NCBI RefSeq assembly: GCF_002865585.1
Contig: NZ_CP025581.1
Location: 558,001 to 622,000 of the forward strand
Direction: 5' to 3'
Length of the DNA: 64,000 nucleotides
Origin: Nocardioides houyundeii
GTDB taxonomy: Bacteria; Actinomycetota; Actinomycetes; Propionibacteriales; Nocardioidaceae
The notes beneath the pieces were generated by a model, which saw only the letters and a program-made list of their open reading frames with translations, had not been told where the DNA came from and searched no databases. Below, one piece after another: positions 18,354 to 35,091 of the stretch (the stretch's first letter is position 1; every line of letters begins with the position of its first letter). The position numbers and the translations under genes were made by a program.

Positions 18354-18464
18354 TCCGCACGTCCTCCCTCGTGTGGGACCCACCGACGACGTGGCCCTCA
18401 CCACCCCATCGGCGACGGGTGGGGGGACCTTAGCATCGACGCGGTTTTCAATGTACAACAGAAA

Positions 18465-18480: not shown

Positions 18481-18578
18481 ATTGACTCGAGGGCCCTCTG
18501 AGTGATTCCGTGTGCTCCCGCTCACGTGGTGCAGGTCACCCGAGCCCGCACGCCACAGCCACAGGGAGGCCCCGCACA

Positions 18579-19930
18579 GTGATTGCCCGCATGGAGACCC
18601 AGCCCGCGCCGAACCGGCGCTGGGCGTCGGTGCACGACCGCGACCGCGAGCAGCTGCGGCAGCTCCTGGTCGACGCGCTCGCCCTGGCCGCGGCCGGGAC
18701 CGCGTCGCAGGACGCGGACCGGGTGCTCTCCGGCCTGGCGTCCCTGGGCGGGGGAGAGGTCCGCGTGCCGTGGACCGACCTGGCGCTGGGCGCCCCGCAG
18801 GCGGTCGCGGCCACGTCGACGCTGATCCACGCCTGGGACTTCGACGACACCCACGACGAGGCCGTGGTGCACACCGCGAGCGTCGTGGTGCCGGTCGCGC
18901 TGGCCGCCGCCGCCACCGGTCGGGCGACCGGCATGGCGGTCGCCGACGGCATCACCACCGGAGTCCACGTGCTCTCCCGCCTGGCCCGCCTGACCGGCCC
19001 CCGGCACGGCGTGATCCGCACCGCCGGACTCGGCTCGCTGGCCGCCGCCGCGACCGCCGCGACCGTCTGGGGCCTCCCGGACCACCAGGTCGAGCACGCG
19101 ATGGCGCTGGCCCTGGGTGCAGCGCTGGCCCCGGAACCCGCCAGGCCGTCGTCGACGGCTCGGTCGCCAAGCGGATCCAGCCCGGGCTCGCCGCGCAGTT
19201 CGGCCTGAGCGCCGCGGCGCTGGCCGCCCAGGGCGTCGAGGGCCCCTCGGGCTGGCTCTCGGGGGAGTTCGGCATCGCGCCCGGGTCCGGCGCCGGCTGG
19301 GACGACCTCTTCTCCGGCGACTACGAGGGTCGCTACATCGCCCTCAAGCCCTACCCCGCGTGCCGCTACACCCACGCCGCGGTCGCCGCGGGCGAGCAGC
19401 TCCAGGCCGACCACCCGGACTGGGGCCAGGTCGAGCGCGTCGTCGCGCACCTGCCCTCCGGCCCGGCGTACGCCCTGGTCTCCCGCCCCTACGCGGACCG
19501 CGGAGCACCGTTGGTCGACGCCCAGTTCTCCCTGCCGTGGCAGCTCGCCGCACTGTGGGTCACCGGCCGCTACGACCTGACCACCCTGCACGGCGGGGAC
19601 CTCGGTCGTGAGGACATCGCCCTGGCGGCCGCGCGGATCGAGGTCGTCCAAGACCTCCCCGAGAGCGCGGTGATGTCAGGCGCCCGCGTCGAGGTGCTTC
19701 TGGCCGACGGCACGACTGCCTCCGCGGAGGCGGCGATGCCCGGCGGCGCCGGCCAGGGCACCACCCGTGCGGATCTCGCCCGCAAGGTCACCTCCTGCCT
19801 CCAGGTCGGAGCGGTGGCGGACCCCGCCGCCGCGAGTGCCCGGCTGTGGGAGCTGGCCGACGCGCTGCCCGACCTGGACGCGGCCGCTCTCCAGGCGGCG
19901 CTCCAGCGCTGCACCCCCGGCTCCGCCTGA
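18579..19930 (+). pseudogene. MmgE/PrpD-family protein, first copy, split by a frameshift
   Basis: Two frames together give a normal-length (about 450 residues) MmgE/PrpD protein. The N-terminal part ends at ...MALALGAALA. The second part begins TRQAVVDGSVAKR and continues through KPYPACRYTHAA, the conserved family segment. Adding one base at the CCCC run 19129-19132 restores the expected SGTRQ-type sequence. The family includes 2-methylcitrate dehydratase and cis-aconitate decarboxylase, acting on branched di- and tricarboxylates; the substrate here is unknown. The GTG at 18579 follows AGGGAGG by 9 bases. It is the first gene of the plus-strand catabolic operon. The break may be an assembly error. 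Confidence 0.85.
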
Positions 19931-19989: not shown

Positions 19990-21138
19990 ATGGACTTCAG
20001 CCTCACCCCCGAACAGACCGCCCTCGTGGAGTCGGTGACCAAGCTCGCGGAGCGCGAGTTCGGCCCGCGTGCGTTCACGCGCACCGAGTTCGCCTGGGAC
20101 AGCCTCAAGGTGCTGGCCGACAACGACCTGACCGGTCTCACCCTGCCCGTCGAGCTCGGCGGCCAGGGCGCCTCCCTGCTCGACGCCGTCCTGGTGATGA
20201 TGGCGATCACCAAGGTGTGCCCGCACAGCGCCGACGCGCTGCAGGCCTCCAACTTCGGCGCCATCCGCCAGGTCGCCAACTTCGGCTCCGACTTCGTCAA
20301 GGCTGAGGTGCTGCCGAAGTTCCTCTCCGGCGAGGCCCTGGTCACCGCCGGCATGAGCGAGCCCGAGGCCGGCAGCGCGCTGACCGACCTGCGCACCTCC
20401 GCACGCATCGAGGGCGACCACGTCATCCTCAACGGCCAGAAGATCTGGAACTCCCACGGTCCCGACGCCACCCACTCGGTGGTCTGGTGCCGCTTCGGCC
20501 CCAAGGCCAGCGACATCGGCGCCGTGCTGGTGCCCTTCGACTCCCCGGGCTTCACCCGCGGCAAGCGCGAGCTGCACATGTCGGGCGAGTCCCACTGCCA
20601 GCTCTTCTTCGACGAGTGCAAGGTGCCGGTCGAGTACGTGCTGGCCGACAGCGGCGCCCTGAAGAAGATGCTCTCGGTCTTCGGCGTCGAGCGGATGGGC
20701 AACGCCTCGCGTGCCCTGGCGCTGGCCGAGAAGGCGTTCGACATGGCCGTCGAGCACGCCTCGACCCGCACCCAGTTCGGCAAGAACCTCTGCGAGTTCC
20801 AGGGCCTGCAGTGGAAGTTCGCCGACATGAAGGTCGAGCTGGACGCGGCCAAGATGCTGCTGCTGCGCGCGGTGGCCAACGCCGACGCCGGCACCCCGGA
20901 CTCCACCGAGGCCGCCATCGCCAAGCTGCACGCCAACCGCACCGCCTTCTCGGTGGCCAACGACGCCATGCAGGTCTTCGGTGCCAGCGGCTACTCCCAG
21001 GAGTTCCCGCTGGAGTACATCGTGCGCCGTACCCGCGGCTGGATGATCGCCGGAGGCTCGGTGGAGATCCTGAAGAACACCATCGCCCAGGACATCTTCG
21101 GTCGTCGCTTCGACCAGCGGGCCGGTGCTGCCCGATGA
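19990..21138 (+). CDS. Acyl-CoA dehydrogenase with displaced catalytic glutamate
   Basis: A 382-residue FAD-dependent acyl-CoA dehydrogenase that should introduce a double bond in a CoA thioester. Conserved parts are TAGMSEPEAGSALTD (flavin/substrate region), GQKIWNSHG, and RTQFGKNLCEFQGLQ. The usual catalytic segment IYEGT reads IAGGS, so the medium-chain-type Glu is absent. Glu234 in GVERMGNAS lines up with the glutamate used by isovaleryl-CoA dehydrogenase-like enzymes and is the better base. That suggests a branched or substituted substrate. It lies between the two MmgE/PrpD genes and overlaps the second by 4 bases (ATGA). Confidence 0.93.
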   Translation: MDFSLTPEQTALVESVTKLAEREFGPRAFTRTEFAWDSLKVLADNDLTGLTLPVELGGQGASLLDAVLVMMAITKVCPHSADALQASNFGAIRQVANFGSDFVKAEVLPKFLSGEALVTAGMSEPEAGSALTDLRTSARIEGDHVILNGQKIWNSHGPDATHSVVWCRFGPKASDIGAVLVPFDSPGFTRGKRELHMSGESHCQLFFDECKVPVEYVLADSGALKKMLSVFGVERMGNASRALALAEKAFDMAVEHASTRTQFGKNLCEFQGLQWKFADMKVELDAAKMLLLRAVANADAGTPDSTEAAIAKLHANRTAFSVANDAMQVFGASGYSQEFPLEYIVRRTRGWMIAGGSVEILKNTIAQDIFGRRFDQRAGAAR

Positions 21139-22537
21139 GCGCCGCCACCCCGCAGGTCAGCCCCACCGGTGCCGCCCTCGACGGGGCCACCGACGCCGTG
21201 GTCGCCTTCGTCCTGGACAGCTACACCGCGCCCCTGCCCCCGAGGTCGAGCACCACGTGCGCCGGCTGCTGGTCGACTACATGGCAGCCGTCGTCCCGGG
21301 GTCGACCACCGACGTGGCCCGTGCCGTGGCCAGCCACGTCGCGGTCACCTACGGCGGCGACCAGGCCACCGCGATCGGGCTCGGCCGGGTCTCCGCGCCG
21401 GGCGCTGCGTTCCTCAACGGGACCAGCTGCCACAGCCTCGAGGTCGACGACGGCTACACGCCGGGATCGGTGCACCCCAGCAGCGTCTGCTTCCCGGCCG
21501 TGCTGGCCGCAGCGGAGGCCCTGGGCAGCGACACCGCCACCACCATGCGCGGCCTCGCGGTCGCCCTGGAGCTGACCTCCCGGCTCGCCGCGGCGGGTCA
21601 CCCCACCACCTGGCGCAACCACTTCCACAACACGCCGCTGGCCGGTGTGGTCGCGGCCGCCTGCGGCGTCGCGGTGCTCCGCGGCCTCAGCGGGGACCAG
21701 CTGCACGACGCGCTGGGCATCGCGGCCTCGCACGCCGGTGGGCTCTTCGCGTTCCTCGGCAAGTCCGCCGAGGTCAAGCGGGTGCACCCGGGCAAGGCCG
21801 CCCGCGACGCGATCGTCAGCGTCGAGCTGGCCGCGGCCGGGGTCACCGGGCCGCGCTCGATCATCGAGGCGCCGCACGGCTACGTCGAGGCCTTCGCCGC
21901 CGACGGGTTCAAGGTCGACGTGCTGCTCGGCGGGCTCGGCAAGAAGTGGGTGGTGCTGGACTCCTACGTCAAGCCCTACCCGTCGTGCCGCCACCTGCAC
22001 GGCCCGATCGACGCCGTGCTGGCGCTGCGTGCCGAGCACGGTGTCGCCCTGGCCGACGTCGCGGAGGTCACGGTGCGGACCTACACCGTGGCCTCGCACC
22101 ACGCCGCCACCGACGTGGACTCGCTGCTCGACGCCCAGATGAGCATCCCGTTCGCGGTCGCCACCACCCTGGCCCACGACGAGGTCGGACTCACCGAGTT
22201 CGGCCAGGAGGCCCGGCGCGACCGCGCCCTGCTCGACCTCGTCGGCCGGGTGCGCGTGCTGGCCGACGAGCAGTCCGACTCCGAGTACCCGCGCCTGCGG
22301 CCGGCCACCGTGGAGCTCACGCTCCACGACGGCCGGACCCTGAGCAACCGGGTCGAGCTGCCCTACGGCGAGCCCGGCAACCCGGTCTCGGACGAGGAGA
22401 TGACCGCCAAGTTCATCCGCCTCGCCGGTCCCGTGATCGGGGAGGCTGCGGCCACCGAGCTGGTGGCCGAGCTGTGGGCCTTCGAGTCCCTCGGCGTGAT
22501 CGCCCGTACCGACGCAGCCCGGAGGAACCCCCGATGA
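21135..22537 (+). pseudogene. MmgE/PrpD-family protein, second copy, split by a frameshift
   Basis: The ATG at 21135 overlaps the dehydrogenase stop and opens a frame reading ...VVAFVLDSYTAPLPP. The remainder continues in another frame as EVEHHVRRLLVDYMAA, then NGTSCHSLEVDDGYTPGSVHPSS, the family's conserved active-site region, and KPYPSCRHLHGPIDA. One extra C in the run 21237-21241 joins them. Rebuilt, it is about 467 residues, normal for MmgE/PrpD. It is clearly related to, but not a duplicate of, the copy at 18579, so the pair may act on successive intermediates or form a mixed oligomer. It overlaps the next gene by 4 bases. Confidence 0.87.
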
Positions 22538-24675
22538 CCCAGCTGACAGAGCAGCCCGTCCGCACGCCCGAGTCCCGGGCCCGGCTCGGCCAAGCCCTGC
22601 TCAACCCCAGTTCCGTGGCGATCATCGGTGCCTCCGACGATGTCCGCAAGACCACCGCACGACCCCTGCGGTTCCTGCGCCAGCAGGGCTTCACCGGCAC
22701 CGTCTACCCGGTCAACCCGCGCCGGGAGACGGTGCTGGGGGAGCGCGCCTGGCCTGACATCGCCTCGCTGCCCGAGGTGCCCGACCACGTCTTCATCGTG
22801 GCCAACACGCCGCTGGTCACCGACGCCGTCCGCGAGTGCGGTCGTGCCGGGGTGCCCCTGGTGACCGTGCTCTCCGGTGGCTTCGGCGAGACCGGCGACG
22901 GTGCCGAGCGGCTCGCGGAACTGCTCGCGGTGGCCGCCGAGTACGGCGTCCGCATCGTCGGCCCCAACAGCATCGGCGTGGTCAACCCGCGCAACGGCCT
23001 GATGCTCACCGCCAACGCCGCCTTCGCCGAGGAGGGCATCCCGGTCGGGTCGTCCTTCGTGGCCTCCCAGTCCGGCAGCGTCATCGGTGCACTGATGACG
23101 CGTGCCAAGGCCCGTGGTCTCGGCTTCTCGGGCTTCGTCTCCACCGGCTCCGAGGTCGACCTGACCCTCGGTGAGATCTGCCAGTCCACCCTGGACGATC
23201 CCGAGGTCGGCTCCTACACCCTCTTCATGGAGTCGCTGGAGAACGCCGCGGAGCTCGGCGAGTTCGCCGTGCAGGCGGCCGCCCGGCAGAAGCCGGTCAC
23301 CGTCTACAAGCTCGGTCGCAGCGATGCCGCCGCCGCCCTCACCGTCTCCCACACCGGCGCCCTGTCGGGTGAGGACGACGAGGCGGACGCGTTCTTCGCA
23401 GCCTGCGGCTTCGCCCGCGTCGACAACTTCGAGGCCCTGATCGAGGCCGAGGCGCTGCAGCGCCGCGTCGGCCCGCCGGTGGCCACCGGCGGCGACCGGG
23501 TCGCGGTCATCACCTCCACCGGTGGCGGCGCGGCGATCCTGGTCGACCAGCTGGAGACCCTCGGCGTCTCGGTCGCCCGGCCCAGCCGTGCGGTGTTCGC
23601 GCGGCTGGAGGCGCTCGGCCTGGACATCGAGGAGAACCTGATCATCGACCTCACCCTGGCCGGCACCAAGCACGAGCTGGTCAAGGGCGCCCTCGAGGTG
23701 CTGCGCAGCAGCGGTGAGTTCGACCTGGTGCTCTTCGTGATCGGCTCCTCGGCCCGGCTCAACCCCGAGCTTGCGGTCAGCGCCATCGCCGAGGCCGCCC
23801 ACGGCCCGGTGCCGGTCGCGGCCTGGGCCCTGCCCGACGCGCTCGCCTCGGTCGAGCTGCTCCACCGGGCCGGGGTGCCCGCCTTCCGCACCGCGGAGGC
23901 CTGCGCTCAGGCGGTGGCAGCGACCGTGGGTCGTCGGCCGCTGGAGCCTGCGGTCTTCGCCGGTCGCTCGGCCATCACGGTGTCCGAGGAGACCAACACC
24001 CTGGACGAGCGCGGCTCGGCCGAGGTGCTGGCCGCCCTCGGCGTCCGGTTCCCGGTGACCACCACCTGCGGCACCGACGCGGTGCCCGCGGCCGCACCCC
24101 GGTTCCCCGCCGTGGTCAAGGCGCTCTCGGAGCAGCTGCCGCACAAGTCGGACGCCGGCGCGGTGGTCCTCGGCGTGGCCGACAACGCCGGGATCGGCGA
24201 CGCGGTCTCCACCATCGTGGAGAACGTCGCGGCCTACGACAGCTCGGTGGAGCTGGACCGGTTCCTGGTCCAGGAGATGGTGCAGGACACCGTCCTGGAG
24301 GCCCTGGTCGGCTACCGGGTCAGTCCCACCGTCGGTCCGCTGGTGCTGCTGGCCGCCGGTGGCGTGCACACCGAGCTCTACCAGGACTCCGCTCTGCGGC
24401 TGGCGCCAGTCACCGCCGAGCAGGCCCATGAGATGGTCGCCGAGGTCAAGGCGATGCAGATCGCCCGCGGCTTCCGCGGTGGCCCCGAGGGAGACCTCGA
24501 GGCCCTGGTCGAGACCGTCGTCGCCGTCTCGCAGCTCGCTCTCGCGCGACCCGACGTGGTCGAGGCCGAGATCAACCCGGTAGCGGTCCAGCGTGTCGGC
24601 GAGGGCGTCATCGCCCTCGACGCCCTGGTACGCCTCGCCGCACCTTCCCCGACCCAACAATCCAGGAGCCAGTGA
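22534..24675 (+). CDS. ADP-forming (NDP-forming) acyl-CoA synthetase
   Basis: A 713-residue single-chain acetate-CoA ligase (ADP-forming) type enzyme, which couples acid + CoA + ATP to acyl-CoA + ADP + Pi, reversibly. Order: CoA-binding Rossmann domain (NPSSVAIIGASDD, about residues 28-125), succinyl-CoA-synthetase-like domains (SQSGSVIGALMTRA; SHTGALSGED with the candidate phospho-His), and an ATP-grasp domain at the C-terminus (ALSEQLPHKSDAGAVVLGV, LVLLAAGGVHTELYQD). In this operon it could activate the imported acid or recover ATP from an acyl-CoA product. The ATG at 22534 follows GGAGG and overlaps the upstream stop. Confidence 0.93.
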   Translation: MTQLTEQPVRTPESRARLGQALLNPSSVAIIGASDDVRKTTARPLRFLRQQGFTGTVYPVNPRRETVLGERAWPDIASLPEVPDHVFIVANTPLVTDAVRECGRAGVPLVTVLSGGFGETGDGAERLAELLAVAAEYGVRIVGPNSIGVVNPRNGLMLTANAAFAEEGIPVGSSFVASQSGSVIGALMTRAKARGLGFSGFVSTGSEVDLTLGEICQSTLDDPEVGSYTLFMESLENAAELGEFAVQAAARQKPVTVYKLGRSDAAAALTVSHTGALSGEDDEADAFFAACGFARVDNFEALIEAEALQRRVGPPVATGGDRVAVITSTGGGAAILVDQLETLGVSVARPSRAVFARLEALGLDIEENLIIDLTLAGTKHELVKGALEVLRSSGEFDLVLFVIGSSARLNPELAVSAIAEAAHGPVPVAAWALPDALASVELLHRAGVPAFRTAEACAQAVAATVGRRPLEPAVFAGRSAITVSEETNTLDERGSAEVLAALGVRFPVTTTCGTDAVPAAAPRFPAVVKALSEQLPHKSDAGAVVLGVADNAGIGDAVSTIVENVAAYDSSVELDRFLVQEMVQDTVLEALVGYRVSPTVGPLVLLAAGGVHTELYQDSALRLAPVTAEQAHEMVAEVKAMQIARGFRGGPEGDLEALVETVVAVSQLALARPDVVEAEINPVAVQRVGEGVIALDALVRLAAPSPTQQSRSQ

Positions 24676-25805
24676 TCACCATGGACGTGCGTATCGACGA
24701 CCTGTCGCTCACCTTCGGCGACTTCACCGCCGTCAAGCACCTGAGCCTCGACATCGAGAATGGCGAGTCGCTCGTGCTCCTCGGTCAGTCGGGGTGCGGC
24801 AAGACCAGCACCATGCGCTGCGTGGCCGGGCTCGAGGACCCCAGCGGTGGCTCGATCACCATCGGCGGCACCACGGTCTTCGACGCGGACAAGCGGGTCA
24901 ACGTGAACCCCAACAAGCGCAACGTCGGACTGGTCTTCCAGTCCTACGCGGTGTGGCCGCACATGACGGTCCTGGAGAACGTCTCCTTCCCGCTGAAGAT
25001 GAAGAAGCGCTCCAAGAAGGACACCAAGGTCAAGGCCATGGAGACCCTCGAGCGAGTGGGGCTGGCCCACCTCGCGGACCGTGGAGCGAGCATGCTCTCC
25101 GGTGGTCAGATGCAGCGGGTCGCACTGGCTCGCAGCCTGGCCATGGAGCCCAACGTGATGCTGCTCGACGAGCCGCTGTCCAACCTGGACGCCCGGCTGC
25201 GCGAGGACCTCCGGGTCGAGCTGCGCCGGCTCCAGCTGGAGCTGGGCCTGACCTGCATCTACGTCACCCACGACCAGGGCGAGGCACTGGCGCTGGCCGA
25301 CCGGATCGCCATCATGCAGGGCGGACGGATCTCCCAGCTGGCCAACCCCTGGGACACCTACCGGGCGCCGGCGTCGGCCTCGATCGCGGAGTTCCTCGGG
25401 GTGTCGAACATCTTCGGGGTCCGTCCTCCGGCGGAGCGCTCCTCGCGGCTGCGACTGCGGGAGCACGAGCTCGAGGTCGCCTTCGGCACCGATCTGCCCC
25501 AGGACACCAGCGACCTGTCGGTCTGCATCCGTCCCGAGCACGTGCGGATCGACTCGCTGAGCGACGCCGGTGCCGTGCCGACCGGCCCCAACTCGTGGCC
25601 CGGCAAGGTCGAGGTCAGTGTCTTCCAGGGCTCCTTCGCCCGTTGCTCGGTCCGGCTCGACGCCGGTCCGCTCATCGAGGTGCAGAGCCACGAGGAGTTC
25701 GCGGGCCTGCTGCACATGGGCGATCGGGTCCTGGTCGAGGTTGACCCCAAGCACGTCCGGGTCCTCCCCGGCGAGGTGCACCCGGAGTCGGGGGAGGAGT
25801 CCTGA
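24672..25805 (+). CDS. ABC transporter ATPase, Fe3+/polyamine/sugar-phosphate importer class
   Basis: A 377-residue ATPase with Walker A (GQSGCGKTS), the signature LSGGQMQRVALARS, Walker B (MLLDEPLSNLDA), the switch His (VTHDQGEALAL), and a C-terminal TOBE-type domain (from about residue 290). Such ATPases serve FbpABC, PotABCD and related importers. The GTG at 24672 overlaps the upstream stop (GTGA) but sits only 3 bases from AGGAG. The ATG at 24681 is an equal alternative and shortens the protein by three residues. Permease and binding-protein genes follow directly. Confidence 0.94.
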   Translation: MITMDVRIDDLSLTFGDFTAVKHLSLDIENGESLVLLGQSGCGKTSTMRCVAGLEDPSGGSITIGGTTVFDADKRVNVNPNKRNVGLVFQSYAVWPHMTVLENVSFPLKMKKRSKKDTKVKAMETLERVGLAHLADRGASMLSGGQMQRVALARSLAMEPNVMLLDEPLSNLDARLREDLRVELRRLQLELGLTCIYVTHDQGEALALADRIAIMQGGRISQLANPWDTYRAPASASIAEFLGVSNIFGVRPPAERSSRLRLREHELEVAFGTDLPQDTSDLSVCIRPEHVRIDSLSDAGAVPTGPNSWPGKVEVSVFQGSFARCSVRLDAGPLIEVQSHEEFAGLLHMGDRVLVEVDPKHVRVLPGEVHPESGEES

Positions 25806-25806
25806 G

Positions 25807-27560
25807 ATGGCGACCCTGACCTCTCCGCCGCAGCCCCAGGTGCCGCTGGCCGACGCGCCGAAGCCGCCGCGTCGCTCCAACGTCAGCTGGCGCAAGCGGT
25901 GGCTCACCTCGGGTGTCCTGCTGGTCATCCTGGCGGTCCTGATCCTGGTGCCCGCCGCCCTGGTCCTGCTGGCCGCGTTCAGCGGCTCGGTGCCCCGGCC
26001 GGGCAACATCAGCTTCGACCTGACCCTGGACAACTTCAGCATCTTCAAGGCCGCCCAGGTCCAGGACGCGTTCCTGAACTCGATGGTGCTCGCGATCTGC
26101 GCCACCGTGCTGGCCTGCGGGATCGGCGCCTCGCTGGCGTTCCTGGCGGCCCGCTCGGACATCCCGGTGCCGAAGTTCATCTACATGATCGGCCTGATGC
26201 CGCTGTTCCTGCCCTCCTACGTCGGTGCGCTGGCCTGGTCGATCCTGGGCAGCCCCAACGCAGGACTGCTCAACATCGCCCAGCAGGACCTGGGCACCTC
26301 GGTGCCGCTGGACATCTACTCGATGCCGGGGATGATCTTCGTCTTCGCGATGTACTACTCGCCGTACACGTTCCTCCTGGTCCACGGCGCGATGTCGCTG
26401 ATGAGCCCGGACCTGGAGGAGGCGGCCCGGGTGCACGGTGCGACCTCGCGCGGGATGCTGCGCCTGGTCTCGTTCCCGCTGGCGCTGCCGGCGCTGATCG
26501 GGTCGGCGATCCTGACCTTCACCCTGATCTTCGAGAACTTCCCCGTGGCCCAGGTGCTGGGCACGCCGGGGGGCATCGACACCCTGCCGACGGCCATCTT
26601 CCGGCTGCTCAACGCGACTCCCTCGCGCGGCAACGAGAGCGCCGCGATCGCGGTGGTCCTGGTGGTCATCGTGGTCTTCGTGACGTGGCTGCAGAACCGG
26701 GCGCTGCGCAAGCGGTCCTTCACCACGGTCACCGGCAAGGGCGTGCGACAGAAGAAGGTCACCCTGGGCCGGGCCCGGATCCCGGTCCTCCTGCTGGCGT
26801 TGGTCTTCTTCCTCCTCTCGATCGTGCTGCCGATCGCGGCGCTGGTCGTGACGGCGGGGCAGACCTCGCCGTACATGACCTCGCTGAGCCAGCTCACCTC
26901 CGCGGGCGGTCTGGACTTCAGCTCCTTCAGCGATGTGCTGGACTCCAGCAGCTTCCGCGAGGCCGCCTTCAACAGTGCGGTGGTCAGCGTCTTCGCCGCC
27001 GTGACGGGCACCGTCCTGGCCTTCGTGTGCGGGTACGTCGTGTACCGGTCCAAGGCCTCGGGCCGCGGCCTGGTGGAGACCGTGTCGATGGTCCCGCTGG
27101 CGATCCCGGCCGTGGTGCTGGGCATGGGTCTGCTGTGGACCTGGCTGGTGATGCCGATCCCGCTCTACGGCACCCTCGCCGTGCTGGTGGTGGCCTTCAT
27201 CGCCGTCCAGTCGCCCCAGGGGTTCCGGGAGTCGCCTCCTCCATCCTGGCCACCGACCGGGACCTGGAGGACAGTGCGGTGATGCTCGGCGCCAGCCGGG
27301 CCACCGCGATCAGCCGGGTCACCGTTCCGCTGATGAAGGCGGGTCTGCTCTCCACGTTCCTGCTGCTGCTGATGCTCAGCATGCGCGAGCTGACGGTTCC
27401 GCTGTTCCTCTACACCAGCGACACCGAGATCCTCTCGATCGCGATCTACGACGCCTTCGAGAACGGCGGCGCGCTGCGCGAGGCCGCGGCCATGAGCGTC
27501 ATCTACACCGCGTTCATGTTCGTCCTGTCCTACATCCCCCGCCGGCTCGCCCGGCAGTGA
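25807..27560 (+). pseudogene. FbpB-type double-length ABC permease, split by a frameshift
   Basis: A fused permease made of two six-helix halves, as in FbpB/CysT-type iron or thiosulfate transporters. Each half has its own ATPase-contact loop: DLEEAARVHGATSRGML and, in the other frame, DLEDSAVMLGASRATAI. The first frame runs to about 27227. Adding a G to the GGG run 27227-27229 restores the natural GFRGVASSILATDRD joint, giving about 585 residues. The ATG at 25807 has GGAGGAG upstream. If the break is real, the last ATPase-contact loop is lost and transport would fail. The context suggests import of the organic acid degraded by the cluster, although relatives often carry Fe3+ or polyamines. 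Confidence 0.87.
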
Positions 27561-27624: not shown

Positions 27625-28767
27625 ATGAAGCTCAACCGATGGGGCGCAGCGGCCGCGGCCGTCCTGCTCAGCACCTCGCTGGCCGCTTGCGGCGGCGACG
27701 GTGGCTCGGACGCCGAGAAGGGCGTCGCGCTGACCGAGAAGATGATGAAGATGCCCGAGATCGACGACTCCGACGGCCTGGTCATCCGCGGTGAGCAGAT
27801 CGCCGACAAGTCGCTGCTGGAGCGGGCCCGCAAGGAGTCGCTGGACTGGTACACCGCGTCCGGCGCCGAGAGCGCGGAGCTGACCGCGGCGCGGTTCGAG
27901 GCGGAGACCGGGGTCAAGGTCAAGATGACCCGACTGCCCTCGGGCAAGCTCAACGAGCGGGTGCTCAGCGAGTCCGGCGCCGGGCGCCTGTCCGCCGGCG
28001 TGGTCACCATCACCGACCCGGTCCTGGCCGAGGGCTTCGCGGACGAGGGCGTCTTCGTGCCGTACCAGACTCCCACCTACGACGACCTGGTGGAGGAGGG
28101 CAACGTCGTCTGGAACGACGGCGAGTACTACACCGCCTACTACTCCGCCTACGCCTTCGCCTACAACGACCAGGCAGTCGAGGAGGCCGACGCCCCGACG
28201 AGCTGGAACGACCTGCTCGACCCGAAGTGGAAGGGCAAGGTCGGCATCGTCAACGCCGGTGCCGGCGGCACCGTCCAGGGCCTGGCCGACTTCCAGGAGC
28301 GCGTGATGGGCAAGGACTACTGGGCCGCCCTGGCCGCCCAGGAGCCCCGGATCTTCGACACCACCTCGGTGCAGCTCGAGGCCCTGGCCCGCGGCGAGAT
28401 CAAGGTCATCACGGCCGGCTTCAACAGCACCTACGGTGCCGAGGAGGCCGGTGCGCCGATCGAGCTGGTGATCCCCGAGGAGGGAATCTCCGGCACGTTC
28501 AACATGCAGGGCCTGACCAACGCGGGCGAGGACAGCCCGGCCGCCCAGCTCTTCATGAACTGGACCATGTCGAAGTCCGCCCAGGAGTTCGCGGCGGCCC
28601 AAGGCTTCGTCGGGTCGCGTACCGACTTCGACCAGGTCCCCAGCGGGCACTACCAGCTGCCCAAGGCCGACGACGAGTCGTTCGTCCTCTACACCCCCGA
28701 GGACGCGCGTGAGCGCGGCGAGGACATCGTCGCCCGGTGGAACAAGGCGTTCAACTTCAGCGGCTGA
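27625..28767 (+). CDS. ABC transporter substrate-binding lipoprotein (Fe3+-type family)
   Basis: A 380-residue lipoprotein (lipobox SLAAC, Cys22) of the extracellular solute-binding group that includes FbpA- and 2-aminoethylphosphonate-binding proteins. Segments such as SLDWYTASGAESAELTAARF and WNDLLDPKWKGKVGIVN are typical. A Tyr cluster (GEYYTAYYSAYAFAYND) lies where FbpA proteins have metal-binding tyrosines, so an iron or metal-acid ligand remains possible. The ATG at 27625 has TAGGAG upstream. It ends the plus-strand operon before a strong terminator. The ligand is not determinable from sequence. Confidence 0.9.
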   Translation: MKLNRWGAAAAAVLLSTSLAACGGDGGSDAEKGVALTEKMMKMPEIDDSDGLVIRGEQIADKSLLERARKESLDWYTASGAESAELTAARFEAETGVKVKMTRLPSGKLNERVLSESGAGRLSAGVVTITDPVLAEGFADEGVFVPYQTPTYDDLVEEGNVVWNDGEYYTAYYSAYAFAYNDQAVEEADAPTSWNDLLDPKWKGKVGIVNAGAGGTVQGLADFQERVMGKDYWAALAAQEPRIFDTTSVQLEALARGEIKVITAGFNSTYGAEEAGAPIELVIPEEGISGTFNMQGLTNAGEDSPAAQLFMNWTMSKSAQEFAAAQGFVGSRTDFDQVPSGHYQLPKADDESFVLYTPEDARERGEDIVARWNKAFNFSG

Positions 28768-28862: not shown

Positions 28863-29327
28863 TCAGTCGAGCAGCACCAGCGACATCTTTCGCGCGACAC
28901 AGGCCGGCCGCTCGCTGCCCTCGAGGTCGACGGTGAAGTCGATCGGGACCAGCAGGGAGCCGTTCCGGGAGACCACCTCGGCGACCGTGCAGCGCAGCCG
29001 CACCCGGGAGCCGACCGGCACCGGGGCCGGGAAGCGGACCTTGTCCAGGCCGTAGTTGAGCCGGGCGGTGCCGAGGTCGAAGCGGTAGAGGTCCTCGGCC
29101 AGGGACGAGATCAGCGACAGCGTGAGGTAGCCGTGCGCGATGGTGCGGCCGTAGGGGCCGGTGGCTGCGCGCTCGGCGTCCACGTGGATCCACTGGTGGT
29201 CGCCGGTGGCTCGCGCGAAGGTGTCGATCCGCTCCTGGTCCACGCTCAGCCACGGCCCGGGGCCGAGCTCGACGCCGACCAGGGCCTCGAGCTCGGCGGG
29301 GGTGGAGACGACGGCGGGAAGGATCAT
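28863..29327 (-). CDS. MaoC-like (R)-specific enoyl-CoA hydratase
   Basis: A 154-residue hot-dog fold protein with the hydratase-2 motif [15 protein letters not shown] (Asp and His catalytic pair) and [17 protein letters not shown]. It should hydrate or dehydrate a trans-2-enoyl-CoA. It starts inside the last bases of the thiolase gene (ATGA) and is the last gene of the minus-strand block starting at 35091. It is a separate, single-domain partner to the longer Meh-like hydratase upstream. Confidence 0.92.
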
Positions 29328-30534
29328 GCCTCGACCCGCTCGACGATGGCGGCCAGGCCCTGACCGCCGCCGATGCACAGGGTGGCCAGGCCGTAGCGGC
29401 CGCCGGTGCGGCTCAGCTGGCGGGCCAGGGTGCCGACCAGGCGGGCCCCGGTGGCGCCGACCGGGTGACCCAGGGAGATGCCGGACCCGTGCACGTTGAC
29501 CCGCTCCATGTCCGAGGTGGTCAGACCCCAGTGGCGGGTCACGGCGAGGGCCTGGGCGGCGAAGGCCTCGTTCAGCTCGATCAGGTCCATGTCGGCCAGC
29601 GTGAGGCCGGCCTTCTCCAGCGCCAGCGCGGTGGCCGGCACCGGGCCCATGCCCATCGTCCGCGGCGGCAGGCCCGCCACCGCCCAGGAGACGACGCGCA
29701 CCAACGGCCGCAGCCCCAGCTCGGCGGCCTTCTCCGGGGAGGTGACCACGCACAGCGCGGCGGCGTCGTTCTGGCCGCTGGCGTTGCCGGCGGTCACGGT
29801 GGCGTCGTCGAGCTGGCGGCCCATGATCGGGCGCAGCGCCGAGAGCTTCTCCAGGGTGGCGTCGGCGCGGGGGTGCTCGTCGGTGTCCACCACGGTGTCC
29901 CCGCGGCGCGAGGGCACCGTGACCGGCACGATCTCCTCGGCGAAGGCGCCGGAGGCCTGGGCGGCGACCGCGCGGCGGTGCGACTCCAGCGCCAGCAGGT
30001 CCTGGTCCTCCCGGGAGATGCCGTGCTCGCGGCGCACGTTCTCCGCGGTCTCGATCATCCCTCCGGGGACCGGGTGATTGACCCCACCGGCGGTGGTGCG
30101 CGCCCGCGCGAGGGCGTCGTGCATCGTCATGCCCTGGCGAGCGGCGCCCCAGCGCGCGTCGGTGGTGTAGAACGGCACGTTGGTCATCGACTCCGCGCCT
30201 CCGGCGACCACCAGGGAGGCGGCTCCGGTCTGCACCATCATCGCGGCGTTGAGCACGGCCTGCAGACCCGAGCCGCAGCGTCGGTCGATCTGCTGGCCGG
30301 GCACCTCCACGGGGAGGCCGGCGTCGAGGGCGACCACGCGGCCGATGGCGGGCGCCTCGCTGTTGGGGTTGCAGTGCCCCAGGATCACGTCGTCGATGGA
30401 CTCTGGGGCAGGCCGCGGGCGACCAGCTCACGCAGCACCGCGGCACCGAGATCGACGGCGGTCAGCGGCTTGAACACGCCGCCGTACCCCCCGATCGGGG
30501 TGCGCAGGGGTTCGCAGATGACGGCGTCGGTCAT
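29324..30534 (-). pseudogene. Acetyl-CoA acyltransferase (thiolase), split by a frameshift
   Basis: The frame from the ATG at 30534 (AAGGAGAG upstream) reads a thiolase N-terminus ([27 protein letters not shown]) and ends at RGLPQ. The rest continues in another frame: [27 protein letters not shown] with the acyl-accepting Cys, [28 protein letters not shown] and CIGGGQG with the second Cys. Adding one base at the run 30405-30408 (C on the coding strand) makes RGLPPESIDDV. Rebuilt, it is about 403 residues, normal size. It would cleave a 3-oxoacyl-CoA, releasing acetyl-CoA or propionyl-CoA. Real inactivation versus assembly error is undecided. Confidence 0.9.
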
Positions 30535-30553
30535 GACTCTCCTTGTGAAGGTG

Positions 30554-30606
30554 TGTGCAGATGTGCAGATGTGCAGGTGTCCTGACCCGTCTGGCGACGG
30601 GTCAGG
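30554..30606 (-). repeat. Intercistronic 8-bp tandem repeat plus perfect hairpin between meh-like gene and thiolase
   Basis: Three tandem copies of TGTGCAGA (the last ends G) occupy 30554-30577. An 11-bp perfect stem (30581-30591 with 30596-30606, loop TGGC) follows and overlaps the stop codon of the Meh-like gene. This is the only non-overlapping junction (67 bp) in an otherwise stop-start-overlapped operon. There is no T-tract on the transcript, so mRNA processing or partial attenuation is more likely than full termination. Confidence 0.6.
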
Positions 30607-31480
30607 CGCGGGCAGGTGGGGGATCCAGCTCCACGCGGGCGTGCACCCGCGGCTGGCCGTCTCCGGGGGAGACCACCTCGAGCACCGGGTGCCCCTCGTC
30701 GCGGCGCACCAGCTCGGCGGGGTCGCCGCAGAAGAGCGGCGCCGAGCCTCGGTGCCGCAGCACCGAGGGGAACGGGGCGCCGGCCCGACGGCCGACCTCG
30801 GCCAGGGCGGTGGCCATCAGCGGCCCGTGCACCACCAGCCCCGGGTAGCCCTCGGTCCTGGTCGCATAGGGCCAGTCGAGGTGGATGCGGTGCGGGTTCG
30901 AGGTCAGCGCGCTGAAGCGGGCCAGCAGGATGGGGTCGGTACGCAGCTGCCAGCTGGCGGCCGCACCGGCCTGCTCGGGGGCCGGCGCGAGCAGCGCCCC
31001 CACGCCGGGTGCCGGTGCCGGCTCGACGGCGACGTCCCCGGTCTCCCGGGCCTCGGTGTAGACGATGTTCTGCACCTCCTCGACCAGGAGCCTGCCGTCG
31101 TCGGCGTGCACCCGGATGGTGAGGTCCACCAGGGCGAGCCGACCGGAGCGGCCCTCGCGATGTCGCGGCTGGGAGGCGCTGGAGACCATGGTGACCCGGC
31201 TCCCGATCGGCACCGGGGCGCGGAACCGGACGGTACCGCCGCCGAACATCCGCCGGGGCAGGTCGACCTCCGGCATGATCCCGGTGCCGCGGCGCGGGTG
31301 CCCGTCGGGCCCCAGCGACTCCGGGTCGGGCCACCGGGAGAGGGCGACCCAGTGCCACAGGGCGGGCAGCGGGGCGCCGGCACGTACGTCGACGTCGTGT
31401 GACCCCAGCAGCCCGGCCAGGGCCTCGACCGCCACCGGGTCGACGACCCGGGTGACGGTCTCGGTCCGCGGCTGAATCAC
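30602..31480 (-). CDS. Mesaconyl-C4-CoA hydratase-like (Meh/HTD2 family) double hot-dog protein
   Basis: A 292-residue protein with an N-terminal FAS1-like dehydratase half and a C-terminal MaoC-like half. Key segments match 3-methylfumaryl-CoA (mesaconyl-C4-CoA) hydratases: [43 protein letters not shown], and [18 protein letters not shown] with the His/Asp pair. Relatives interconvert mesaconyl-C4-CoA and (S)-citramalyl-CoA; other beta-methyl-enoyl substrates are possible. The GTG at 31480 overlaps the SDR stop (GTGA). The neighbouring CaiB and CitE-like genes are the expected partners for this step, which strengthens the call. Confidence 0.85.
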
Positions 31481-32217
31481 ATGAACCGCCCGCCGGTGAC
31501 CTCTGCCACCGTGCCGGTCATGTAGGAGGACAGGTGCGAGGCGTAGAAGAGCGCCACGCCGGCGACCTCGTCGGGCTCGCCCGGGCGCTGCATCGGGATC
31601 TCGGACATCTTCTGGTCCCAGGCCTTCTGCGGCATCGCCTCGGTCATCGCCGAGCGGACCAGGCCGGGCTGGATCGCGTTGACCCGGACGCCGTGGTGGG
31701 CCATCTCCTTGGCAGCTGCCTTGGTCATGCCGACGATGCCCGCCTTGGCGGCGGAGTAGTTGGTCTGGCCGACCATGCCGACCTTGCCGGAGAGCGAGGA
31801 GATGTTCACGATCGCGCCGGACTTCTGCTCGCGCATCCGCGCCGCGGCGAGCCGGGTGCCGTTCCAGGTGCCCTTGAGGTGGACCGAGATGACGAGGTCG
31901 AAGTCCTCCTCGGTCATGGTGCGCATGGTGGCGTCCCGGGTGATCCCGGCGTTGTTGACGAACACGTCGAGCGAGCCGAAGTCGGCGACAGCGGTGTCCA
32001 CCAGGCTCTGCACCTGCTCGGCGTCGACCACGTCGCAGCGCACGCCGCGGACCCGGTCCGCGCCGAGCTCGGTGGCCGCTGCTGCGGCTGCAGCCTCGTC
32101 GAGGTCGCCGATCACCACGTTGGCGCCGTGTGCGAGGTAGAGCCGGGCGATGGCCAGGCCGATGCCCTGGGCGCCTCCGGTGACGATGGCGGTCTTGCCG
32201 TTGAGGAGCGAGGTCAT
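31477..32217 (-). CDS. Short-chain dehydrogenase/reductase (FabG-like)
   Basis: A 246-residue classical SDR. The NAD(P)-binding [12 protein letters not shown], and catalytic Ser-Tyr-Lys (ISSLSGK...YSAAK) are all present. Asp40 in VVIGDLDEA at the end of strand 2 suggests NAD(H) preference. In the cluster it probably oxidises a 3-hydroxyacyl-CoA to the 3-oxoacyl-CoA for the thiolase. Its start overlaps the CitE-like stop by 4 bases and its stop overlaps the Meh-like start. Confidence 0.93.
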
Positions 32218-33095
32218 GATTCCCTTCCTGTCGGTTCATCTGTGGATTCAGCGGTGAGATCAGGGCGGGGTGCGGCGGCGTCGACCACTCGTAGCACGCG
32301 CAGCGCGCGCTCCACGACGGGTCGGTCCACCATCCGTCCGTCCAGGGTGGCCACGCCCTCGCCGGCAGCCTCGGCGGCCGCGGCCGCCTCCAGCACGGCG
32401 CGGGCCCAGGTCACGGTCGCCTCGTCGGGGGCGAACCCGCGCGTCGCCGCGACCACCTGGCGCGGGTGGATGCAGAGCTTGCCGCCCATGCCGAGCTGCT
32501 GGGCCCGGTGGACGTCGCCGTCCAACCGCTCCTCGTCGGTGACGTCGGCGGTGACCCCGTCGACCGGAGCGGCGAGCCCGGCGGCGGCCGAGGCGAGCAC
32601 CAGGGTGCTGCGCGCCCAGAGCAGTGCCTCGTGGGCGTCCGGGTCGATGCCCAGCTCGGCGGCGAGGTCGAGGTGGCCGAACGCGAGCCGTACGACGGCC
32701 GGGTGGGCCGCCAGGCTCGGCGCGGCGAGCACTCCGGCGGCTGTCTCGACCAGGGCCACCACCGGACCGCAGCCGAGTGCGAGGCGGTCCAGCGCCTCCA
32801 CGTCCTGGGCCTTGGGCAGCATGATCGGGCAGCCGTGGCGGCGTACCAGCTCCAGGTCGGCGAGGTGGTCGGCGGTGCCGGCCGCGTTGATCCGGACCAT
32901 CAGGGGCAGACCCTCGCCAAGCAGCCGGTCCACGGCCTGGCGGGCCGTGGCCTTGGCCGCCGCGGGCACGGCGTCCTCGAGGTCGACGACCACCAGGTCC
33001 GCTCCGCTGGCCAGCGCCTTGGCCACCCGCTCGGGCTTGGTGCCCGGGACGAACAGCAGCGTGCGCGCCGTACCCGGGTCGGGCAGGGCGGTCAT
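32214..33095 (-). CDS. CitE-like CoA-ester lyase (citramalyl/malyl-CoA lyase family)
   Basis: A 293-residue TIM-barrel HpcH/HpaI-CitE family protein. The N-terminus [30 protein letters not shown], and the metal-binding [10 protein letters not shown] and [11 protein letters not shown] regions are typical. The family cleaves 3-hydroxy-3-methyl or 2-hydroxy dicarboxyl-CoA thioesters to acetyl- or propionyl-CoA plus pyruvate or glyoxylate. Beside a Meh-like hydratase, citramalyl-CoA lyase is the leading reading; L-malyl-CoA or beta-methylmalyl-CoA lyase remain possible. It shares one base with the CaiB stop (TGATG). Confidence 0.88.
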
Positions 33096-34309
33096 CAGGC
33101 GGCGGGGTCGCAGGCGACCACCCGGTGGTCGTGGAGGCGGCCGATCTCCGCGCTGGAGAGTCCGAGCTCGGCGCTCAGCACGTCCTCGGTGTCGGCGCCC
33201 AGGCGGGGTGCCGGCACCGGGTCGACGAGCTGGGTGTCCCAGCGCAGCGGGTTGCTGGTGGCCAGCATCTGCCCGATGCCCGGCTGGTCCACGACCCGGG
33301 CCACGGAGTCCTGGTCGGCGCGCGCGGCGCTGGCCGCCTCGCCCATGGACCGGTACGGGCCCCACAGCACGCGGGCCCGGTCCAGCAGGGGCGTGAGCTC
33401 GTCCAGGGTGCGTGCTGCGAACCACGGGCGCAGGATCGAGGCGATGGTCTCGCGCAGCTCGTACCGCCTGGACTCCAGGCGCAGGTCGGTGTCCAGCGCG
33501 GTCTCCAGGGCGGTGAAGACGGGGGCGGTCGAGGTGACCTCGCACAGTGCCCGCCAGTGTCCCTCGGTGAGGGCCACGATCATCACGCGCTGGCCGTCGG
33601 CGGTGGCGAAGTCGGTGCCGAAGCTGCCGAAGACGTGGTTGCCGTGCGGCTGCCTGCTGCCGTTCTGCTCGGCCTCGGCCAGCCAGCCCACCGCGCCGAC
33701 GGCGGAGAGGGCGACGTCGGCCAGGGCGATGTCGATCTGCGATCCCTCGCCGGTCGTCTCGCGCCGGCTGACCGCGGCCAGCAGACCCAAGGCGGCGTTG
33801 GACCCGGTGAGCAGGTCCCAGGCGGGCAGCACGTGGTTGACGGGCTCGGGGGAGCTGACCGGCCCGGTCATGCTGGGCACCCCGACCGCGGCGTTGACGG
33901 TGTAGTCGACCGCGGGGCGGCCGTCGGGGAAGCCCAGCACGTGCACGGAGATGGCGTCGGGGCGCCGCGAGGTGAGGTCGTCGTGGGTGATCCGGTGACG
34001 ACCGACGAGGTTGTCCACCAGGATGCCGGCGCCCGGTCCGGGGCGGGTGCTCAGGGCGAGCACCAGCTCGCGGCCCTCGGGGGTGCGGTAGTCGAGCACG
34101 ACCGAGCGCTTGCCCTTGTTCAGGCTGGCCCAGTAGAGGCTCGCCCCGGTCTCGGCCAGCGGCCAGCGCAGGTGGTCGCTGCCGCCGCCCGGGAGGTCGA
34201 TGCGGGTCACCTCGGCTCCCATCTGGGCCAGGGCCATCCCGCAGGAGGGGCCGGCGATGAAGGTCGCGCACTCGACCACCTTGAGGTGGGCCAGGGGGGT
34301 GGTGCTCAT
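33095..34309 (-). CDS. CaiB/BaiF family (class III) CoA-transferase
   Basis: A 404-residue class III CoA-transferase. It has FIAGPSCGMALAQMGAEVTRI at the N-terminus (nucleotide-like CoA fold), NKGKRSVVLDYRTPEGRE, and the catalytic Asp165 in PAWDLLTGSNAALG. These enzymes move CoA between carboxylates, or within a molecule as in mesaconyl-C1-C4-CoA transferase. Placement directly upstream of CitE-like and Meh-like genes fits a transferase acting on mesaconate-type acids. The donor and acceptor are unknown. Start overlaps the enoyl-CoA hydratase stop (ATGA). Confidence 0.9.
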   Translation of the reverse strand: MSTTPLAHLKVVECATFIAGPSCGMALAQMGAEVTRIDLPGGGSDHLRWPLAETGASLYWASLNKGKRSVVLDYRTPEGRELVLALSTRPGPGAGILVDNLVGRHRITHDDLTSRRPDAISVHVLGFPDGRPAVDYTVNAAVGVPSMTGPVSSPEPVNHVLPAWDLLTGSNAALGLLAAVSRRETTGEGSQIDIALADVALSAVGAVGWLAEAEQNGSRQPHGNHVFGSFGTDFATADGQRVMIVALTEGHWRALCEVTSTAPVFTALETALDTDLRLESRRYELRETIASILRPWFAARTLDELTPLLDRARVLWGPYRSMGEAASAARADQDSVARVVDQPGIGQMLATSNPLRWDTQLVDPVPAPRLGADTEDVLSAELGLSSAEIGRLHDHRVVACDPAA

Positions 34310-35091
34310 GAGAAGTGGGGCTCCCGTCGTTCGAGGAAGGCCGTCTGGCCTTCGCGTGCATCTGGACCGTGGCCAGCCAGCGCCATCGCGGCGCGCTCGC
34401 CGCGCAGGAACTGGGCGAGCCCGGCGCGGTCGTGGTTGAGCAGCGACTTGGTGATCGCGTTGGACTGCTTGGGGCCGTTCGCCAGACGGGCCGCGAGCTC
34501 GAGCGCGCGGGCCGTCGCCTGACCCGAGGGCGACGTCTCGGTGATCAGACCAGCCTCCAGGGCGCCGGCGGCGCCGAGCCGCTCGCCCAGGTAGAGGTGG
34601 GCGGCGGCGCGCTGGTGCCCGAGGCGGCGCGGCAGGTGGAACCCGGTGCCGGCGTCGGCGGTCATCCCACGCGCCGCGAAGGGGGCCAGGAAATAGGCGT
34701 CCTCGGCGGCCACGACCAGGTCGCAGGCCAGGACGATGCCCCAGGAGGCGCCGATCGCGTAGCGCTCGACGGCGGCGATCACCAGCTGGTCCGCACCGAC
34801 CATGGAGTTGATCAGGTCGTGGATCTTGGCCAGTCGCGCGGCCGGCGCGAAGACGCCGGCGTCGGCGCCGGCCATGGAGGCGACGTCGCCGCCGGAGGAG
34901 AAGAACTCCTCCCCGCCGGTGAGCACGACGGCCGCGTCGCCCCGCTGCGCCGCCTCGGCGAAGCCGGCGCGCAGCAGGTCCACGGTGGCGGCGTCCAGCG
35001 CGTTGCGGCGGTGTGGCCGGTTCAGGCGCAGCGTGGTGACGCCGTCCTGCGACGTGCGCAGAACGAGCTCCTCATTTCGTTGGGACGTCAT
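34306..35091 (-). CDS. Enoyl-CoA hydratase/isomerase (crotonase family)
   Basis: A 261-residue crotonase. The oxyanion-hole segments are FFSSGGDVASM and AVERYAIGASWGIVLACDLVVA. The usual catalytic Glu pair of enoyl-CoA hydratase is not obvious (the second region reads FAARGMTADAGTGFHLPRRLG), so it may be an isomerase or hydrolase of the superfamily. It is the first gene of the seven-gene minus-strand block. There is no ribosome site before the ATG at 35091 and AT-rich promoter sequence abuts it, so the message may be leaderless. Confidence 0.9.
   Translation of the reverse strand: MTSQRNEELVLRTSQDGVTTLRLNRPHRRNALDAATVDLLRAGFAEAAQRGDAAVVLTGGEEFFSSGGDVASMAGADAGVFAPAARLAKIHDLINSMVGADQLVIAAVERYAIGASWGIVLACDLVVAAEDAYFLAPFAARGMTADAGTGFHLPRRLGHQRAAAHLYLGERLGAAGALEAGLITETSPSGQATARALELAARLANGPKQSNAITKSLLNHDRAGLAQFLRGERAAMALAGHGPDAREGQTAFLERREPHFS

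Follow-up and report, generated by a model that had tools for sequence, protein, structure and literature searches.

The closest described system to the locus analyzed here is the five-gene cluster ich-mcd-msi-ict-ccl of Cupriavidus necator and Pseudomonas aeruginosa, which degrades itaconate and methylsuccinate and was published in 2025 (PMC12290011). In this cluster, the MmgE/PrpD protein is a methylsuccinate isomerase (Msi) that acts on free acids rather than CoA esters, and the acyl-CoA dehydrogenase (ACAD) produces mesaconyl-C4-CoA. Msi was placed in the Pseudomonadota in 96.2% of cases, and the main text of the paper does not contain the words actinomycet-, actinobacteri-, Mycobacterium, Nocardi-, or Rhodococcus (PMC12290011). 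Homologues of all five enzyme classes were found together in a 64,000-nucleotide stretch of DNA from Nocardioides houyundeii (hereafter the window; positions 558001-622000 of a single-contig 3.84-Mb genome; G+C 71.5%). The locus probably serves to break down diacids that carry a methyl branch on a succinate backbone, with methylsuccinate and/or itaconate as the likeliest substrates. Methylsuccinate may well be the main imported substrate, although we place this somewhat below an even chance. Gene order, subfamilies, conservation, and active-site residues were read directly, and from them the substrate, the stereochemistry, and every reaction are proposed. The 15 genes of the locus are as follows.

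17655..18458, minus strand: GntR/FCD-type regulator (Pfam GntR and FCD), divergent from the plus-strand unit
18510..19930, plus strand: first MmgE/PrpD protein (MmgE1; Pfam MmgE_PrpD_N and _C on two frames)
19990..21138, plus strand: ACAD of 382 amino acids (Pfam), predicted to be of the methylsuccinyl-C4-CoA type
21135..22537, plus strand: second MmgE/PrpD protein (MmgE2; Pfam; PDB B. subtilis IRG1 / IDS epimerase)
22534..24675, plus strand: ADP-forming acyl-CoA synthetase (Pfam CoA-binding, succinyl-CoA-ligase-like, and ATP-grasp; top PDB match 4-hydroxybutyrate-CoA ligase (ADP-forming), 288 bits)
24672..25805, plus strand: ABC transporter ATPase with a TOBE domain (Pfam)
25807..27560, plus strand: ABC permease (Pfam BPD_transp_1 on two frames)
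27625..28767, plus strand: ABC solute-binding protein of the Fe3+/AfuA-like family (Pfam; top PDB match 4r72 at 59.5 bits, then mostly iron-binding proteins)
28863..29327, minus strand: single-domain MaoC protein, (R)-hydratase-like (MaoC2; Pfam MaoC_dehydratas; top NCBIfam match PaaZ at 46.7 bits, under the cut-off)
29324..30534, minus strand: thiolase (Pfam; NCBIfam PRK06205 at 595 bits, passing the cut-off of 551)
30602..31480, minus strand: Meh/Ich-like two-domain hydratase of 292 amino acids from a GTG start (PDB 8huc/8khg, 135 bits)
31477..32217, minus strand: FabG-like short-chain dehydrogenase/reductase (SDR; Pfam; NCBIfam PRK05653 at 368 bits, passing the cut-off of 296)
32214..33095, minus strand: CitE-like HpcH/HpaI lyase (Pfam HpcH_HpaI), predicted citramalyl-CoA lyase
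33095..34309, minus strand: CaiB/family III CoA-transferase of the Mct subfamily (TIGR04253; PDB 8apq/7xkg)
34306..35091, minus strand: crotonase-family protein (ECH), PaaG-like (Pfam ECH_1)

The minus-strand unit (35091-28863) reads, from 5' to 3', ECH, CaiB, CitE-like, SDR, Meh-like, thiolase, and MaoC, with overlaps of 1-4 bases among the first five open reading frames (ORFs; ECH to Meh) and between thiolase and MaoC, and with none before the thiolase. An inverted repeat of 10 bp, free of mismatches and with a loop of 4 bases, lies at the Meh stop codon ahead of the thiolase (30582-30605, minus strand). The plus-strand unit (18510-28767), which carries both MmgE/PrpD proteins, the ACAD, the synthetase, and the importer, converges on this operon. 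An initial annotation of the DNA had described CaiB, CitE, and Meh as consecutive and coupled. The three do belong to one overlapping run, but the SDR separates CitE from Meh. The two MmgE/PrpD genes, the ACAD, and the ABC importer that it had joined to the set were present, but in the second, convergent unit and together with a synthetase. Its statement that the whole set corresponded to no pathway it knew is outdated, as the Pseudomonadota have a published counterpart for itaconate and methylsuccinate, composed of ich, an ACAD, an MmgE/PrpD gene, a CaiB gene, and ccl (PMC12290011). Additionally, the operon is followed by genes for a universal stress protein and a BKACE (beta-keto acid cleavage) protein at 35228-36609 on the plus strand.

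The CaiB protein matched two Mct structures (8apq and 7xkg) at 370 and 366 bits, with the next structure at 101, and it scored 386.2 bits against TIGR04253 (Mct, or 2-methylfumaryl-CoA isomerase), under the equivalog cut-off of 725. Passages of two studies of Mct describe Asp165, Arg47, and Tyr136 as catalytic or substrate-binding, Leu43 as narrowing the active-site entrance, with Leu or Ile there common to four named intramolecular enzymes, and the adenine as wedged between Phe101 and Ile74 (PMC9813914, PMC9196870). Equivalents of Arg47, Tyr136, and the nucleophile Asp165 were found in all 96 CaiB rows compared, a total that includes the window's row and those of three duplicate genomes. Clades were counted in 93 rows, after removal of the duplicate-genome rows L084, L086, and L099, on a midpoint-rooted tree. 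The sample consisted of family genomes and of the best matches of a wider search, in which the 80 best loci were taken from 582 matches confirmed for two peptide patterns, and the clade proportions are valid for that sample only. The window CaiB fell among 47 rows that group apart with a support of 100/100, outside the clade of Chloroflexaceae and Accumulibacter, referred to here as the Mct clade. It has Ser (Ser44) at position 43, where Mct has Leu; Leu, Ile, or Val occupied this position in 32 of 33 rows of the Mct clade, three of 47 in the window's clade, and none of 13 in the clade of a CaiB from a second, canonical operon of the family, described below. Similarly, the window CaiB has Leu101 and Tyr74 where Mct has Phe101 and Ile74. 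Phe or Tyr at position 101 was found in 27 of 33, none of 47, and none of 13 rows of these clades, respectively, while position 74 was variable in all three and uninformative. With the catalytic residues kept and the Leu43/Phe101 cork lost, the window CaiB is predicted to perform intermolecular CoA transfer rather than the Mct-type transfer from C1 to C4. That Leu43 controls the transfer mode is suggested by structures and few sequences.

The alternative that survives best is that CaiB is nevertheless a true Mct. The beta-oxidation of 3-methyladipate (or 4-methyl-3-oxoadipate) would then yield methylsuccinyl-C1-CoA, the ACAD would form mesaconyl-C1-CoA, CaiB would move the CoA intramolecularly from C1 to C4, and Meh and CitE would follow as in the 3-hydroxypropionate bi-cycle. 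CaiB is far nearer to Mct than to other solved CoA-transferases, and gammaproteobacterial Mct-family genes lie near an Mcd homologue: the Marinobacter ACAD matched 8ciw at 590 bits and is, by homology, a (2S)-methylsuccinyl-CoA dehydrogenase. A relative of Mcd (at least 44% identity) was found in 14 fetched loci, of which 13 had Leu, Ile, or Val at the gate and one had Pro (Fisher p = 6e-6, relatedness uncorrected). Since the gate residues track the Mcd-bearing loci, the C1 route belongs with true Mct and probably not with the CaiB of the window, in which Leu43 is replaced by Ser and Phe101 by Leu. The window also has no match at 1e-60 to the long Mcd-type ACAD of Marinobacter. An Mcd of the ethylmalonyl-CoA pathway (about 550 amino acids, 8ciw-like) was ruled out for the window ACAD, which has 382 amino acids and matches 5af7 best. 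In the open-access literature searched, nothing was found that links 3-methyladipate with methylsuccinyl-CoA, and nothing relevant on 4-methyl-3-oxoadipyl-CoA. True Mct as the default reading of CaiB was rejected on the cork residues and the clade; a literal C1-to-C4 role for the protein is doubtful, and the explanation as a whole appears unlikely.

The Meh protein had 8huc and 8khg as its sole confident structure matches (135 bits; all others at E of 0.15 or more), and 8khg is named itaconyl-CoA hydratase, which places Meh with the Ich-type hydratases. Its motif beginning HRIH.DWPY is nearly as in the itaconyl-CoA hydratase structures and in proteobacterial and canonical-operon relatives. For CitE, the top NCBIfam model was RipC_Ccl (NF038242) at 147.8 bits against a cut-off of 375, followed by citrate lyase citE at 144.6 bits, also under its cut-off. 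The best structures, 9nzb and 8khl (163 bits, with the next at 120), are named only acyl-CoA lyase beta chain and are presumably RipC-type enzymes. Hence, the enzyme classes of a C5-diacid route, as named in the initial annotation, were recovered at the subfamily level for CaiB and Meh and more weakly for CitE, whose assignment is the least certain of the three. A further Meh homologue (43% identity) was located on a Mycobacterium avium plasmid (L176, 9001-9819), amid genes for a P450, an aldehyde dehydrogenase, and a homogentisate dioxygenase.

The ACAD matched 5af7 best, at 209 bits compared with 122 for 6es9. In the window and in two relatives, G126 of the same genus, which shares part of its gene order, and G049 of another genus of the same family, which shares all of it, the ACAD has Glu at the 'VER' site and none at the 'AGG' site of the usual catalytic Glu, where the window enzyme has Gly. 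The relocated Glu was also found in the ACADs of three proteobacterial loci beside Ich-like genes (L177, L180, and L174), and it is shared with L177 and L180 despite an identity of about 28%. In contrast, Mcd and the two canonical-operon ACADs examined (L122 and L128) have the opposite arrangement, with Glu at the usual site. Isovaleryl-CoA dehydrogenase carries its catalytic base at the 'ER' site, and methylsuccinyl-C4-CoA is isovaleryl-CoA with one methyl swapped for a carboxylate. By virtue of this similar shape, the relocated-Glu geometry would fit methylsuccinyl-C4-CoA.

MmgE2 retains six of the seven methylsuccinate isomerase residues (His88, Glu91, His102, His152, Lys202, and Lys266), with Trp for Tyr148, and this retained set makes methylsuccinate isomerase activity plausible. 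MmgE1 is without equivalents of Tyr148 and His152 and has Asp for Glu91. The PrpD 2-methylcitrate dehydratase was rejected for MmgE2 (NF042438, 43.1 bits against a cut-off of 950). Elsewhere, three MmgE/PrpD relatives were observed among SDRs close to a CaiB of the window's family (L094, 646-7047, in G167). In the ECH protein, both hydratase glutamates, which we take to be the catalytic residues, are apparently missing, and a PaaG-like ADAG stretch is present; the glutamates are apparently missing in its counterpart in G049 (52% identical) as well. Since mesaconyl-C4-CoA differs from itaconyl-CoA in being a 2-enoyl rather than a 3-enoyl ester, a role as 3,2-enoyl-CoA isomerase is possible for ECH.

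If the chemistry proceeds at C4, the shortest route would lead from the acid through its C4-CoA ester, mesaconyl-C4-CoA, and citramalyl-CoA to acetyl-CoA and pyruvate. The ABC importer would take up the acid, an MmgE/PrpD protein would interconvert the stereoisomers of the free acid, and CaiB (by intermolecular CoA transfer) and/or the ADP-forming synthetase would form the C4-CoA ester. The ACAD would then form mesaconyl-C4-CoA, to which the ECH-like protein may also lead by moving the double bond of itaconyl-CoA. Meh would hydrate mesaconyl-C4-CoA to citramalyl-CoA, and CitE would split the latter into acetyl-CoA and pyruvate. Besides these steps, MaoC2, SDR, and thiolase could perform one round of (R)-specific beta-oxidation, by which a longer homologue (e.g. 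a methyladipate) would become methylsuccinyl-CoA. On thiolysis, HOOC-CH(CH3)-CH2-CO-CH2-CO-SCoA (from 2-methyladipate) would give methylsuccinyl-C4-CoA, while 3-methyladipate would give the C1 ester. The initial annotation had likewise suggested extra rounds on a longer substrate, and this gained support, as thiolase and SDR were the best conserved genes of the minus-strand operon.

Gene neighbourhoods were surveyed by tblastn with the window proteins, to which genes unlike those proteins are invisible. CaiB was rare in the family, with eight of 341 genomes at E<=1e-120, and in a class-wide sample of 394 genomes, three had it at E<=1e-150, the window's own genome counted in both cases. In G049, all 15 genes from GntR to ECH were present with order and orientation kept (49-83% identity), and such complete synteny indicates that the gene set is conserved beyond chance. 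The regulator had orthologues in the same place in G126 (82% identity) and G049 (59%). G126 encodes GntR to the solute-binding protein plus CaiB at 78-97% identity, followed by the universal stress protein and BKACE pair, and no match to ECH, CitE, SDR, Meh, thiolase, or MaoC was found at this locus. Instead, the canonical operon of G126, located at 3.48 Mb, holds a Meh of 49% and a CitE of 57% identity; this operon reads CaiB-CitE-ACAD-SDR-Meh-thiolase-MaoC with a CaiB and an ACAD of its own. As the importer unit and CaiB occupy one place in G126 and Meh and CitE another, the halves of the cluster can be separated, although both are present. The series from CaiB to thiolase of the canonical operon was found in all seven genomes fetched, six of which had MaoC too; these seven were drawn from 13 genomes with Meh at E<=1e-58, the window's own excluded. 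This recurrence and the split in G126 point to a lower operon that recurs and to an upper module, composed of the importer, the synthetase, the MmgE proteins, the ACAD, and CaiB; in the window and in G049, the module is joined to a version of this operon. In G126, the canonical operon has an SDR (L122, 13504-14232) 90% identical to that of the window, next to a Meh of only 48% identity, an uneven conservation that possibly reflects an exchange between operons.

Co-occurrence of CaiB and Meh was also observed. Meh (E<=1e-12) was found in four of the eight family genomes with CaiB (E<=1e-120), compared with 35 of the 333 without it. In a one-sided Fisher test, p was 0.007, rising to 0.03 when the genome of the window was left out (relatedness uncorrected). 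Protein searches covered the best 120 matches each for CaiB and Meh. Among the matches listed, five of the seven organism-named CaiB relatives of at least 73% identity had a Meh relative on a contig of equal length. The whole cluster was found in two genera, and by the source names among those matches, close relatives of CaiB and Meh occur in Nocardia and Aeromicrobium. Within the fetched flanks of the 80 wider CaiB loci, relatives of Meh and CitE occurred together in nine and a thiolase relative in 19, while many had neither a Meh, a CitE, nor a thiolase relative.

Several observations weigh against a methylsuccinate or itaconate route. CaiB is far under its NCBIfam equivalog cut-off, CitE is far below the equivalog cut-offs as well, and RipC leads citrate lyase CitE by only 3 bits. 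Neither MmgE protein carries the full seven-residue methylsuccinate isomerase set, the Fe3+/AfuA family of the binding protein names no diacid ligand, and the ACAD and CaiB are only about 28% and 27% identical, respectively, to the proteins of the proteobacterial clusters. In addition, no Meh was found at 1e-12 in four of the eight family genomes with CaiB, and of the 80 wider CaiB loci, a Meh relative was in the fetched flanks of 14 and a CitE relative in those of 15. Finally, four ORFs of the cluster are frame-broken in this assembly.

These four ORFs, which switch frame internally, are MmgE1, MmgE2, the permease, and the thiolase. In MmgE1, the break lies near 19100-19130 and leaves the N and C halves in separate frames. 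In MmgE2, the first approximately 35 codons are out of frame with the remainder (break near 21240); the permease breaks near 27220, and the first approximately 40 codons of the thiolase are in another frame (break near 30410). In G126, MmgE1, MmgE2, and the permease each occupy a single frame, as do MmgE1 and the permease in G049, and an intact thiolase orthologue of 404 amino acids is encoded in L122. Compared with G126, frame changes were flagged in six of 62 orthologues, two inside the cluster and four outside, one of the latter (L161_12061) being doubtful with a 3-base gap only. By DNA alignment, they were flagged in seven of 49 genes outside the cluster and one of six inside, at least two of the seven (L161_13041 and L163_14288) being poor alignments. 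Set against the seven of 49 outside, the four breaks among the 15 genes of the cluster gave p = 0.27; this comparison is unclean, as inspection of the reading frames, rather than the scan, revealed two of the four. Locus-specific decay was therefore unsupported, and as frame changes were flagged elsewhere in the assembly, the breaks in the cluster are probably sequencing noise or general decay.

A second alternative is that the reactions are as proposed but the substrate is a larger succinate or itaconate substituted at position 2, such as a succinate from plants, fungi, or petroleum that bears an alkyl, aryl, or carboxyalkyl group; CitE would then release acetyl-CoA and a longer 2-oxo acid. 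Access to the CaiB active site is predicted to be wider, a substrate of different shape is suggested by the Trp of MmgE2 and by the divergence of both MmgE proteins, and a thiolase lies near CaiB in many actinobacterial loci. Moreover, the Msi pocket could accommodate larger, C3-modified substrates (PMC12290011). However, Meh has almost the motif seen in the itaconyl-CoA hydratase structures, and no feature of the cluster indicates an alkyl chain; we consider this explanation quite unlikely. Action of Meh and CitE on an unrelated CoA ester, within a pathway for steroids or aromatic-ring acids, is very improbable. Thiolase, SDR, ECH, and MaoC are frequent in such clusters, but no ring-cleaving, monooxygenase, or steroid-type family was detected among the 38 Pfam-scanned ORFs (30 + 8, a part of those around the locus), and CaiB and Meh belong to C5-related subfamilies. 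The degradation of 3-sulfinopropionate, by CoA transfer through CaiB and desulfination through the ACAD to succinyl-CoA and sulfite, is hardly credible and was rejected: 5af7, named acyl-CoA dehydrogenase in the PDB table, is presumably a 3-sulfinopropionyl-CoA desulfinase, and the top NCBIfam match of the ACAD is 3-sulfinopropanoyl-CoA desulfinase (NF042439), but at 272.8 bits against a cut-off of 600, with Asp aligned to 5af7 Arg84 (a residue that we take to function in desulfination, on which a literature search returned no paper), with Glu where 5af7 has Gln, and with no use in such a route for Meh, CitE, or MmgE.

Beyond the catabolism of methylsuccinate and/or itaconate, the locus could represent a route of the actinobacteria's own, a speculative though conceivable proposal. 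Such a route would combine a CoA-transferase clade derived from the Mct family, its active site opened and its transfer changed from intramolecular to intermolecular, with a non-orthologous methylsuccinyl-C4-CoA dehydrogenase, a glutamate-less ECH serving as a dedicated itaconyl-CoA 3,2-isomerase, and built-in beta-oxidation, whereby longer methyl-branched diacids and methylsuccinate or itaconate would share one path to acetyl-CoA and pyruvate. The Msi cluster has until now been assigned nearly exclusively to Pseudomonadota, and an actinobacterial counterpart would extend C5-diacid turnover to these soil bacteria. Genes currently named 2-methylfumaryl-CoA isomerase would also gain a different, testable function; a gene of this name is mentioned beside ectD in Gordonia in a passage of PMC9861168. 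In the open-access literature searched, no work on a comparable actinobacterial cluster was found. Outside the locus, the window encodes three long proteins with repeated carboxypeptidase-regulatory-like domains (41882-51653).

The comparison with ich-mcd-msi-ict-ccl was made through the proteobacterial loci L177 and L180, where Meh, ACAD, CaiB, and CitE occur together, rather than with the P. aeruginosa and C. necator proteins themselves. The window Meh is 40-42% and its CitE 42-45% identical to those of L177 and L180, whereas its CaiB (about 27%) and ACAD (about 28%) are of other subfamilies, the CaiB being of the Mct rather than the Ict type. Besides the five classes, the window adds a synthetase, an ABC importer, ECH, SDR, thiolase, MaoC, and a second MmgE. 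Among the 11 plasmid loci L174-L184, none had matches to all five classes by tblastn with the window proteins: L177 and L180 were without an MmgE match, and the Cupriavidus campinensis locus L174 had ACAD-MmgE-Meh but no CitE match.

The canonical Nocardioidaceae operon has the same order as the window's, with SDR 72-90%, thiolase 66-73%, CitE 49-57%, Meh 47-52%, and MaoC2 50-54% identical. In contrast, its CaiB is 40-44% identical to the window's and of another clade, and its ACAD is 27-31% identical. The fetched stretches of this operon had no match to MmgE, the synthetase, the permease, or the binding protein, and matches to the ABC ATPase (28-30%) occurred only in L129.

The gammaproteobacterial Mcd-Mct loci of Marinobacter and Porticoccaceae (L057, L061, and L069) share an Mct-family CaiB with the window, and L057 and L061 also have Meh and CitE homologues; they differ in having a true Mcd homologue and a hydrophobic gate. 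In L057 (Marinobacter), an HMG-CoA-synthase-like protein and a lipid-transfer-type thiolase (3545-6218) are encoded close to Mcd and Mct. Compared with Mct itself, by far its best match, the window CaiB keeps the equivalents of Asp165, Arg47, Tyr136, Asp135, and Asn100, but it is without the cork residues Leu43 and Phe101, belongs to a separate actinobacterial clade, and reaches 386 bits against the cut-off of 725. If the proposed route is true, the two proteins would form a natural pair in which to see how intramolecular and intermolecular CoA transfer are kept apart by the Mct cork.

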